A stretch of 9,437 nucleotides of DNA, taken from contig DAHWHV010000371.1 in the NCBI GenBank assembly GCA_027335545.1, positions 1 to 9,437 of the forward strand. Reading direction: 5' to 3'. Origin of the DNA: Clostridia bacterium. Its GTDB lineage: Bacteria > Bacillota_E > RBS10-35 > JAJYVN01. Shown piece after piece: positions 4,292-9,437 of this stretch. The notes beneath the pieces were generated by a model. The model saw only the letters and a list, made by a program, of their open reading frames with translations. It ran no database searches and had not been told where the DNA came from. How positions within the stretch are numbered: position 1 is the stretch's first letter; the number at the start of each line of letters is the position of its first letter. The position numbers were made by a program, and so were the translations under genes.

Positions 4292-4468
4292 CGCCTGCGG
4301 CGAGCGGTGCTGCGCCGCGGAGCACGGGTGCCACGGCGTCCGGAAGAGGGTGCTGCCAGAGCGGACGCGTTCAGCACCGCCTGGGCGGCAGCGGCCGCAC
4401 CCCGAACCGCTCATAGCCCGCGGCGCTCGGGGGGATGGTGTGGGGGCAGCGTCGCGGTGCGGCGGTGC

Positions 4469-4475
4469 AGGGAGG
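4469..4475 (+). promoter_or_regulatory. Ribosome binding site that sets the spoIVB start
   Basis: AGGGAGG lies 8 nt before the TTG at 4484. It is the best Shine-Dalgarno match in the region and places the start directly before the membrane anchor of SpoIVB. The open frame extends upstream through the repeat-rich gap to 4307, but those residues are low complexity and unlike SpoIVB. Confidence 0.75.
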
Positions 4476-4483
4476 CGCGGCCG

Positions 4484-5797
4484 TTGCGTGGGCAGCCGTT
4501 GCTCAAGCTGCTCGCTGCCCTGGCGGCGGCGGCGATCCTCGCGGTGGACGCCTCGCCGGCCGGCAGGCACGTGCTGCGGCTGCCGACTGCGGTGACCCTG
4601 GCCGTCGGCGAGCCGCAGGCCATCGCCTTGGCGCTGCCGGGGCGGGTCGCGGTCCGGGTCGGGGGCGGGTCGGCGCCGCTCCTGGTGGACGGCCAGGCAC
4701 CCCCCCCCGGTTGGAACCTGCTCCCCGGGCGGAGCCTGGGCCTGCAGCCGACCGCACCCGGCACCTACACGGTCCGCCTCCGGCTGTTCGGTTTCCTCCC
4801 CTGGCGCTCGGTGCGCGTCGAGGCCGTGATGCCGCCCCGGCTCGTGCCGGGGGGGCAGGCGGTGGGCGTCCTGCTGCGGAGCCGCGGCCCCCTGGTGGTG
4901 GGGGAGACGGCGGTCCCCGGACCCGCCGGCCCGGTGCGCAGTCCGGCCGCCGCGGCCGGCATCCGGGTCGGTGACGTACTGGTGGCGGTGGACGGGCGGC
5001 GCGTGACCTCGCCGGCCGCGGTCGACGAGGCCCTGGGTCATGGCGCACCCGCGGGGCCCGTCCCCGTCACCGTGTTGCGCCGCGGACGCCAGTTGCGGCT
5101 GTGGGTGCGCCCGGCCTACGACCCGGCGGACGGGCGCTACCACATGGGGACCTGGGTGCGGGAGACCACCGGCGGGATCGGCACACTGACGTTCACCTCC
5201 CCGGCCGGGGCGTTCGGGGCGCTCGGCCACGTGGTCCTCGACCCCGTGGCGGGGGTACCGGTGGTGCTCGGTGCGGGTCGGTTGGTGCCGTCGCTGATCG
5301 CGGGGGTGGACCCGAGCAGCGGGGGCCACCCCGGGGAGAAGCTGGGCGTGCTGGTCCCGGGCGCACCGTCGCTGGGGACCGTCACCGCCAACACGCCCTT
5401 CGGTGTCTTCGGCCTCCTCACCCGCCAACCGACGCCGGGACCCGTCACGCAGGCCCTGGCGGTCGCTCTCCCGGACCAGGTCCACCCCGGACCGGCGGAA
5501 ATGCTGACGGTGCTGCACGGAGGCGGCGTGGAGGGTTTCGCGGTGCGCATCACCGCCGTGCTGCCGCAGCGGCGGGCCCGGTTGCGCGGGTTCCTGGTGC
5601 GCGTGACCGACCCCCGCCTGCTGCGGGCCAGCGGGGGCATCGTGCAGGGGATGAGCGGCAGCCCGGTCCTGCAGGGCGGTCGGCTGGTCGGCGCCGTGAC
5701 GCACGTCTTCGTGGACGCCCCGACCCGCGGGTACGGCGTGCTCGCCCTCTGGATGGCGCAGGCGGCGGGGTTGGGCGCGGGCGCGCAGGCCGCGTGA
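4484..5797 (+). CDS. spoIVB: SpoIVB sporulation signalling serine protease (S55 family)
   Basis: Serine peptidase made in the forespore and secreted to the space between the two spore membranes. In Bacillus subtilis it cleaves SpoIVFA and so releases SpoIVFB to process pro-sigma-K. From TTG 4484 the protein has 437 residues; the B. subtilis protein has about 426. A single N-terminal membrane anchor (LLKLLAALAAAAILAV) comes first, then a PDZ domain at about 121-206 beginning VPGGQAVGV, with GIRVGDVLVAVDG inside. The S55 domain follows. The likely catalytic triad is His249 (GALGHVV), Asp376 (VTDPRLL) and Ser391 (GMSGSPV). Their spacing equals that of His236, Asp363 and Ser378 in B. subtilis, so the enzyme looks active. 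The block GVDPSSGGHPGEKLG, the NTPFGVFG stretch and GAVTHVFVDAPTRGYGV are also family-typical. A sigma-G promoter would be expected upstream, but none could be recognised. The gene ends 223 bp before spo0A. Confidence 0.97.
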   Translation: MRGQPLLKLLAALAAAAILAVDASPAGRHVLRLPTAVTLAVGEPQAIALALPGRVAVRVGGGSAPLLVDGQAPPPGWNLLPGRSLGLQPTAPGTYTVRLRLFGFLPWRSVRVEAVMPPRLVPGGQAVGVLLRSRGPLVVGETAVPGPAGPVRSPAAAAGIRVGDVLVAVDGRRVTSPAAVDEALGHGAPAGPVPVTVLRRGRQLRLWVRPAYDPADGRYHMGTWVRETTGGIGTLTFTSPAGAFGALGHVVLDPVAGVPVVLGAGRLVPSLIAGVDPSSGGHPGEKLGVLVPGAPSLGTVTANTPFGVFGLLTRQPTPGPVTQALAVALPDQVHPGPAEMLTVLHGGGVEGFAVRITAVLPQRRARLRGFLVRVTDPRLLRASGGIVQGMSGSPVLQGGRLVGAVTHVFVDAPTRGYGVLALWMAQAAGLGAGAQAA

Positions 5798-5823
5798 CGG
5801 TTTGCCCCACCGGCACCGTCCGA

Positions 5824-5851
5824 GGCCCGCCCGACCTCGACGGGTGGGGCC
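5824..5851 (+). terminator. Hairpin after spoIVB, possible weak terminator
   Basis: GGCCCGCCCG and CGGGTGGGGCC flank the 7-nt loop ACCTCGA. They form an 8-bp stem with one G-U pair, then a one-base bulge and two more pairs. It starts 27 bp past the spoIVB stop. No T-run follows (the next bases are GCGCGCGGCC), so termination is uncertain. It would fit separation of spoIVB transcription from the spo0A promoter region downstream. Confidence 0.4.
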
Positions 5852-5863
5852 GCGCGCGGCCTG

Positions 5864-5870
5864 TGACGAA
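5864..5870 (+). promoter_or_regulatory. Candidate 0A box (Spo0A binding site) upstream of spo0A
   Basis: TGACGAA matches the 0A-box core TGNCGAA. It lies about 150 bp before the spo0A ATG and about 40 bp before the candidate sigma-H -35. Spo0A regulates its own promoter in B. subtilis, so the place makes sense. In sequence this rich in GC, one such match in the gap has roughly a 5% chance of arising at random. Confidence 0.5.
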
Positions 5871-5892
5871 AACGCGCCGACGGTCCTACCGC

Positions 5893-5901
5893 TTATCCAC
5901 A
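5893..5901 (+). promoter_or_regulatory. Exact DnaA box upstream of spo0A
   Basis: TTATCCACA is identical to the strongest consensus binding site of the replication initiator DnaA. It lies 10 bp before the candidate sigma-H -35 element and 23 bp after the 0A box. Six of its nine bases are A or T in a region that is otherwise nearly all G and C. No second clear box was seen nearby, and this is not a replication origin context because there is no dnaA or dnaN gene. Confidence 0.6.
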
Positions 5902-5910
5902 GGGTGCCAG

Positions 5911-5937
5911 GCAGGACCCCCTCCGGGGAATCAGAAT
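5911..5937 (+). promoter_or_regulatory. Candidate sigma-H-type promoter of spo0A
   Basis: GCAGGACCC at 5911-5919 and TCAGAAT at 5931-5937, 11 bp apart, resemble the sigma-H consensus RNAGGAWWW, 11-12 bp, RNNGAAT. The AGGA and GAAT cores are exact; the flanking W and R positions are not kept. In B. subtilis the sporulation promoter of spo0A uses sigma-H. It would give a leader of about 75 nt. Confidence 0.45.
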
Positions 5938-5942
5938 CCCCG
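5924..5942 (+). promoter_or_regulatory. Dyad overlapping the candidate spo0A -10
   Basis: CGGGGA (5924-5929) and TCCCCG (5937-5942) are perfect inverted half-sites around ATCAGAA, the segment that carries the putative -10. This could be an operator at which a dimeric regulator blocks the promoter, or simply a 6-bp hairpin with a 7-nt loop. No regulator can be named. Confidence 0.35.
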
Positions 5943-5955
5943 ACTTTGTGACCCG

Positions 5956-5984
5956 GCGAGGGGGCCCTCGCGGCCGAGGGGGCC
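5956..5984 (+). other. GC-rich structured leader segment before spo0A
   Basis: GCGAGGG at 5956-5962 is complementary to CCCTCGC at 5965-5971, a near-palindrome that can form a tight hairpin. The 10-mer CGAGGGGGCC occurs twice, at 5957-5966 and 5975-5984. GTGAC (5948-5952) and GTCAC (5985-5989) could pair around the whole. If transcription starts near 5945, this would be a folded 5' leader ahead of the purine-rich ribosome site GGAAGAGG at 6006-6013. Confidence 0.4.
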
Positions 5985-6020
5985 GTCACCCCGTGGGGTG
6001 GAAGCGGAAGAGGTGGAGAG

Positions 6021-6800
6021 ATGGCGGCTATCGCGCCCGCGACGGCGCCCTATCGGGTGCTCGTGGCAGACGACAACCGGGAGTTTTGCGACCTGCTGGC
6101 CCAGTATCTGCAGAGCCAGACCGACTTCAAGCTCGTCGGCGTGGCGCAGAACGGCCGCCAGGTGCTTGAGCTCGTACAGAGTGAGACGCCCGACGTGGTG
6201 GTGCTGGATGTCATCATGCCCCACCTCGACGGCATCGGCGTGCTCGAACAACTCAACGGCTTGGGGCTCGCTAAGCGGCCCCGGGTGATCATGCTGACGG
6301 CCTTCGGCCAGGAGAGCATCGCCCAGCGCGTCGTGTCCCTGGGTGCCGACTACTACATCCTGAAGCCCTTCGACCTGGCGGTGTTGGCCAAGCGCATCCG
6401 GCAGATCGCCAGCGGTCAGGTCGTGAAGCCCACGGCGACGGAGGGGCGGAGCCTCGACGTCGAGGTGACCGAGGTCCTGCACGAGATCGGCATCCCCGCC
6501 CACATCAAGGGCTACCTCTATCTGCGCGAGGCGATCTGCCTCGTGGTCGTGCGGGTGGAGCTGCTCGGCGGCATCACCAAGGAGTTGTACCCCTCCATCG
6601 CCAAGCGCTTTCAGACGACGCCCAGCCGGGTGGAGCGCGCCATTCGCCATGCCATCGAGGTGGCTTGGAACCGGGGCAACGTCGACCTGATCCACAGCCT
6701 GTTCGGCCACACCGTGAACTCCGAGCGTGGCAAGCCCACGAATTCGGAGTTCATCGCCATGGTCGCGGACAAGCTTCGCATGGAACTGCGGCGTTCTTAG
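6021..6800 (+). CDS. spo0A: Sporulation master response regulator Spo0A
   Basis: Response regulator that receives phosphate from the sporulation phosphorelay or from orphan kinases. It then binds 0A boxes to switch on early sporulation genes and repress growth-phase genes. The protein has 259 residues; the B. subtilis protein has 267. The receiver domain covers about 10-130, with acidic pocket Asp17/Asp18, phosphoacceptor Asp63 ([12 protein letters not shown]), Thr93 (MLTAF) and Lys115 (ILKPF). The linker is variable. The Spo0A-specific DNA-binding domain covers about 145-259 ([24 protein letters not shown]), with the recognition-helix region [21 protein letters not shown] at 199-219 and the conserved end [17 protein letters not shown]. 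The ATG at 6021 is preceded by GGAAGAGG. All functional residues are present. The upstream gap carries candidate 0A, DnaA and sigma-H sites, and a terminator-like hairpin follows. Base use is somewhat less GC-rich than in recN. Confidence 0.99.
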
Positions 6801-9378: not shown

Positions 9379-9437
9379 GCTCGCGACGGACATCCGCGTC
9401 CCGGGGCGGGCCTCCTGCGTCCTGTCCGGATAGGCAA

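Follow-up and report, generated by a model that had tools for sequence, protein, structure and literature searches.

The analysed DNA, a stretch of 9,437 nucleotides called the window, contains spoIVB and spo0A on the same strand, separated by a gap of 223 bp (5798-6020, from the spoIVB stop to the spo0A start) (Table 1). Within this gap lies the 9-mer TTATCCACA, the sole perfect DnaA box in the window, which is identical at 9/9 positions to the DnaA-box consensus TTATNCACA given in a passage of PMC4447404. From left to right, the gap presents the 0A box, 22 bp, the DnaA box, 11 bp, AGGA, 17 bp and GAAT. The AGGA-to-GAAT spacing of 21 bp (5913 to 5934) suits the consensus of sigma-H promoters. 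The 9-mer itself is not a 0A box: the CG of the consensus TG[TA]CGAA, tabulated in the part of PMC4285127 consulted, is missing, and a separate TGACGAA is located at 5864. The site is not a replication origin, recognizable as a cluster of boxes beside dnaA, the box standing alone between spoIVB and spo0A.

Table 1. Features of the spoIVB-spo0A region in the window
Feature	Position	Strand	Evidence
spoIVB open frame, gene upstream of spo0A, start position provisional	4307..5797	+	TIGR02860, 327 bits (cut-off 305)
0A box TGACGAA, predicted Spo0A site, fits TG[TA]CGAA	5864..5870	+	direct sequence reading
Perfect DnaA box TTATCCACA; the next base, G (5902), is likewise invariant in five carriers	5893..5901	+	direct reading and alignment of relatives
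Sigma-H-type -35, AGGA at 5913-5916, 11 bp past the box	5911..5919	+	AGGA in 9/9 close genomes
Sigma-H-type -10 core GAAT, 21 bp past AGGA	5934..5937	+	comparison of close genomes
spo0A	6021..6800	+	TIGR02875, 388 bits (cut-off 200)

Three further observations were made in the window. Inside spo0A, TGATCCACA (6688-6696) has one mismatch to the box, and ATCCACA recurs near this position in several relatives; coding constraint can explain the recurrence. The spo0A leader carries a GC-rich inverted repeat (5957-5986), and a close relative (G001) has a similar stretch followed by a T run. Several folds of the leader were individually strong, a structure common to them was not seen. On the minus strand an open frame extends from 7911 to the window edge at 9437; judged by eye, its product resembles a solute-binding protein that is secreted by means of a twin-arginine-like leader, and a search at E 0.001 yielded no Pfam family.

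An earlier note on this DNA had described a perfect DnaA box between a 0A box and a sigma-H-like promoter of spo0A, which is borne out with a distance of 11 bp to AGGA. Its chance estimate was 1.5e-4. A first-order Markov model gave a slightly rarer expectation, 6.1e-5 to 9.8e-5 perfect boxes in the gap with both strands counted, a post-hoc value for a single word in a single gap. Conservation at a fixed spacing is stronger evidence than this rarity. Relatives were collected by a Spo0A genome scan and a subsequent search among 61 genomes surrounding the closest match. Eight close relatives (G001, G002, G004, G005, G006, G007, G011 and G014) had a Spo0A 81-90 % identical to that of the window; G001 contains locus L001 (record name Bacillota bacterium MAS3.bin161) and G002 contains L002 (FK2.bin46). 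The hosts are uncultured, GC-rich spore-forming bacteria. A perfect box was present in G001, G006, G011 and G014, while the 279 bp upstream of spo0A in G002, G004, G005 and G007 held no box within two mismatches. In all five carriers, the window included, exactly 11 bp lie between the box and AGGA. The 279 bp upstream of spo0A contain no second box within two mismatches in any of them; a multiplicity as at sda or nrdAB was not observed. Ten consecutive columns, TTATCCACAG, are invariant in the carriers; upstream of the -35 region just three further columns are. The box starts 87 to 128 bp before the spo0A start codon, depending on the genome, and 21-22 bp separate the box from a 0A-like CGAA. 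The 0A box reads TGACGAA in G001, G006 and G007 and TGGCGAA in G002 and G005; CGAA alone remains in G011 and G014, and G004 lacks it. AGGA, the anchor of the column comparison and also lined up by MAFFT, is present in all nine close genomes, with GAAT 21-22 bp past it in eight and GAAC in G004.

The surroundings of the box have diverged. Over 57 gap-free flanking columns the pairwise match among seven genomes, with G004 and G011 set aside, was 21-51 %, and 28-40 % among the window, G001, G006 and G014; over the nine box columns of the same genomes, carriers matched one another at 100 % and matched non-carriers at 0-33 %. SpoIVB of the window is only 47 % identical to that of G006 or G014, and RecN only 47 % identical to that of G014, therefore unconstrained DNA should be randomised at this distance. 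The four carrier relatives count as about three lineages, because two of them, G011 and G014, are closely related sister genomes with 98 % identity in Spo0A. For three further lineages to keep the word at the background rate, the joint chance is about 2e-12, a rough value that assumes independence among columns and among lineages.

A five-gene tree (Spo0A, SpoIVB, RecN, ArgR and NAD kinase), calculated without G004 and G011, united the window with G001 (support 98) and then with G002 (78); G005 and G007 were placed weakly (43 and 38), G006 came next, and G014 stood outside with a support of 100 for that split. G006 contributed Spo0A and SpoIVB only, G002 had no NAD kinase and G012 no ArgR. In G004, spo0A is split over two contigs and a SpoIVB match was not obtained. 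Trees of Spo0A alone and of Spo0A with SpoIVB had low support among the closest relatives and were mutually discordant; the Spo0A tree unites G002, G004, G005 and G007 with a support of 28, which would allow a single loss. For the history of the box the five-gene tree was preferred, itself weak for G005 and G007. The box was probably ancestral, with two or three later losses, or it was re-acquired after a loss with its spacing unchanged.

Genome-wide word counts cover the eight close relatives, out of 13 genomes of the order. Copies of the perfect word and, after the slash, of the reversed word as control were: G001 8/6, G002 6/1, G004 2/0, G005 9/4, G006 10/7, G007 11/3, G011 5/1 and G014 6/1. 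In several genomes the total of the box word is not far above the background of the reversed control. G011 and G014 (about 4 Mb each) have three copies just upstream of dnaA and one at spo0A; one more copy in each lies beside a type IV coupling-protein gene, and G014 has an additional one elsewhere. In G005 the 5' end of the dnaA frame carries two perfect boxes, and in G006 one lies just after dnaA; the dnaA contigs of G004 and G007 contained none. The same word is in part used at the origin of the lineage, namely in G011, G014, G005 and G006. The box shared by G014 (L162, position 1501) and G011 (L169, position 1501) adjoins the gene for the type IV secretion coupling protein, identified at L169 by PF10412 and PF02534 over the cut-off, and a short inverted repeat was seen by eye alongside.

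The composite pattern of box, -35 and -10 occurred in four of the order's 13 genomes, with one site each and always at spo0A; the reversed composite pattern had no match in the 13 genomes. Within the class, 14 sites were present in 12 of 154 genomes, and the four at spo0A belonged to the same four genomes. For the other ten sites the retrieved flanks, about 1.5 kb, gave no Spo0A match, and some of the sites lie near contig ends. Separately, a conserved cluster of DnaA-like boxes was seen beside tatC in G001 (L134, 1705-1765), G002 (L237, 1686-1737), G005 (L183, near 1501) and G007 (L187, near 1501). The sequence TGCACAGNGTTRTCCACA was found in 4 of the 154 genomes of the class, in each case at this cluster, with tatC flanking in all four and uvrA matched in three (not in G002); Pfam confirmed UvrA and TatC in G001. 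The cluster looks like a second DnaA site outside the origin, for the control of uvrA or as a DnaA reservoir.

A wider survey of spo0A upstream regions started from 139 rows, of which 135 remained after removal of L033 and L127 (without anchor word) and of L134 and L135 (not spo0A loci), and 122 after removal of 13 duplicates. All 122 anchors lay inside the Spo0A match; L121 comprised 177 bases only. Six regions had a perfect box, the five related carriers and Ammonifex sp. (L008), in comparison to a mean of 0.29 for permuted words, one of 100 permutations reaching six. One-mismatch words were present in 18 regions (5 carriers, 13 others) versus 6.8 for permuted words, again with one of 100 permutations reaching the observed number; outside the clade their offsets were scattered. 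DnaA boxes at spo0A as a general trait of Firmicutes were rejected, as 116 of the 122 regions lacked a perfect box. In Ammonifex sp. (genome G062, three copies of the word) the perfect box precedes AGGA by 12 bp, and from AGGA to GAAT it is 21 bp. The box starts 138 bases before the end of the spo0A anchor codons, and GAAT is part of GTCGAAT, so that the -10 and a 0A-like site overlap. The pattern scan of 113 genomes of the Ammonifex class gave 26 sites, one of them at spo0A (Ammonifex), and a strict scan of 398 genomes evenly drawn from the phylum of G062 gave five, of which only that of G062 was at spo0A; spo0A was looked for within fetched flanks of about 1.5 kb, some sites being near contig ends. 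This sole case outside the clade may be due to chance or convergence, because no other of the 113 class genomes matched at spo0A, and being alone among this many regions it is at most suggestive.

DnaA was found in six of the eight relatives, each time with the DNA-reading motif GGRDHTTV. The domain of G014 aligns with solved DnaA chains, among them 8btg and 1j1v, and the motif is present there too. The assemblies of G001 and G002 yielded no dnaA, which was taken as an assembly gap. A sigma-H gene scored over the TIGR02859 cut-off in all eight relatives. Sda (PF08970) was found in none of the 13 genomes of the order, B. subtilis being the sole positive among 14 control genomes; the part of PMC3533761 consulted tables sda and sirA in most bacilli and in no clostridia. 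Of the checks proposed by the earlier note, that for a box kept at the same spacing came out positive in four of the eight relatives, including the deepest-branching ones, but the other four have no box. The word proved to be rare, the eight counted relatives having between 2 and 11 copies apiece. A wiring of DnaA to spo0A other than via sda agrees with the negative Sda search, but the box is solitary and missing in half of the relatives.

Taken together, we consider it likely that the 9-mer functions as a DnaA box within the sigma-H promoter of spo0A, through which DnaA would affect transcription in either direction; we infer binding and effect from the sequence comparison. DnaA would occupy the box at about -55 to -46 of the transcription start as placed from the promoter, just upstream of the -35 and beside the sigma-H RNA polymerase, with the 0A box some two helix turns farther upstream. 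Transcription of spo0A would thereby be tied directly to the level or the nucleotide state of the replication initiator. A contact of DnaA with RNA polymerase would fit, because the spacing of the box to the -35 is fixed while the distance to the start codon varies. Against a working box stand the solitary site, its absence in four of eight relatives and the one case outside the clade. Escherichia coli nrdAB likewise has high-affinity DnaA boxes at a promoter, where DnaA activates or represses according to its level or nucleotide (in a passage of PMC8203912), but there three boxes serve a metabolic gene, whereas here one predicted box would serve the sigma-H promoter of a developmental regulator. 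As the fixed spacing fits a polymerase contact, we slightly favour over repression an activating or stabilising role of DnaA when its level is low or when it is bound to ADP, as described for nrdAB.

Repression, the other sign of the same effect, is possible and held tentatively: replication-active DnaA at a high level would hinder the polymerase at the sigma-H promoter and delay sporulation, as a direct substitute for Sda. The logic would be that of B. subtilis, in which DnaA blocks sporulation through sda (passages of PMC5295017 and PMC12112137), and Sda was not found in the 13 genomes. However, the box overlaps neither the -35 nor the -10, simple blocking needs no strict phasing, and a second box within two mismatches, from which a filament could form, is not present. 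It is unlikely that the 9-mer serves another regulator or is a divergent second 0A box, its reading as TTATCCACA being a coincidence. Passages of PMC5295017 describe 0A and DnaA boxes as alike and overlapping at oriC of B. subtilis, but the full agreement with the DnaA consensus, the lack of the CG, the occurrence of the word upstream of dnaA (G011, G014) and at the dnaA 5' end (G005), and a separate CGAA site kept also in three of the four box-less relatives point to DnaA. That the box merely titrates DnaA passively or is a relic, and leaves spo0A unaffected, is also improbable. The box is missing in half of the relatives, and a passage of PMC4447404 states that the large majority of the sites bound by B. 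subtilis DnaA in vitro were not seen bound in cells; a passive site, however, has no need for an 11-bp spacing to the -35 kept across diverged flanks. Any 9-mer occurs somewhere and the window was scanned post hoc, but a chance word is hardly credible, given that about three further lineages have it at the identical spacing while the per-column background is 35-40 %, and that the reversed pattern had no match.

A working DnaA box at spo0A, the reading we prefer, has counterparts in B. subtilis. The DnaA-sda-Spo0A checkpoint also couples DnaA activity to Spo0A (passages of PMC8203912 and PMC5295017), as is proposed here, but indirectly via a kinase inhibitor that was not found in the 13 genomes; several boxes matter at sda according to a passage of PMC4447404. 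Spo0A at oriC is a direct cross-talk of sporulation and replication regulators as well (passages of PMC5295017 and PMC4285127), yet as a mirror image: there Spo0A acts on the origin, here a predicted DnaA site lies at spo0A. YabA, which controls DnaA, also has an influence on the spo0A promoter, with transcription twofold lower without yabA, but the part of PMC5871692 consulted names no DnaA site at spo0A and the influence may be an indirect one. A passage of PMC8203912 lists eight gene sets under direct DnaA control in B. subtilis, and spo0A does not appear there. The Sda link and Spo0A at oriC are treated in the parts consulted of PMC8203912, PMC5295017, PMC7561715, PMC4285127, PMC12112137, PMC3533761, PMC4447404, PMC6136694, PMC5871692 and PMC13395437. 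Titles, abstract openings and passages of the open-licence literature contained no report of a direct action of DnaA at spo0A, an absence that is no proof.

On balance we lean towards a broader view, in which some Sda-less spore formers would wire replication to sporulation directly, by DnaA acting on the sigma-H promoter of spo0A. This switch would be ancestral in the clade and then have been lost repeatedly, or it would have returned after a loss with the 11-bp spacing unchanged. To our knowledge, the means by which sporulation is restrained while replication proceeds are not settled for spore formers other than the Bacilli. The conserved predicted DnaA site at spo0A offers a concrete one-site hypothesis, with the relatives that have the promoter and lack the box as potential natural controls. 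A box in a fixed place hints at a direct link between the copying of the chromosome and the formation of the spore.
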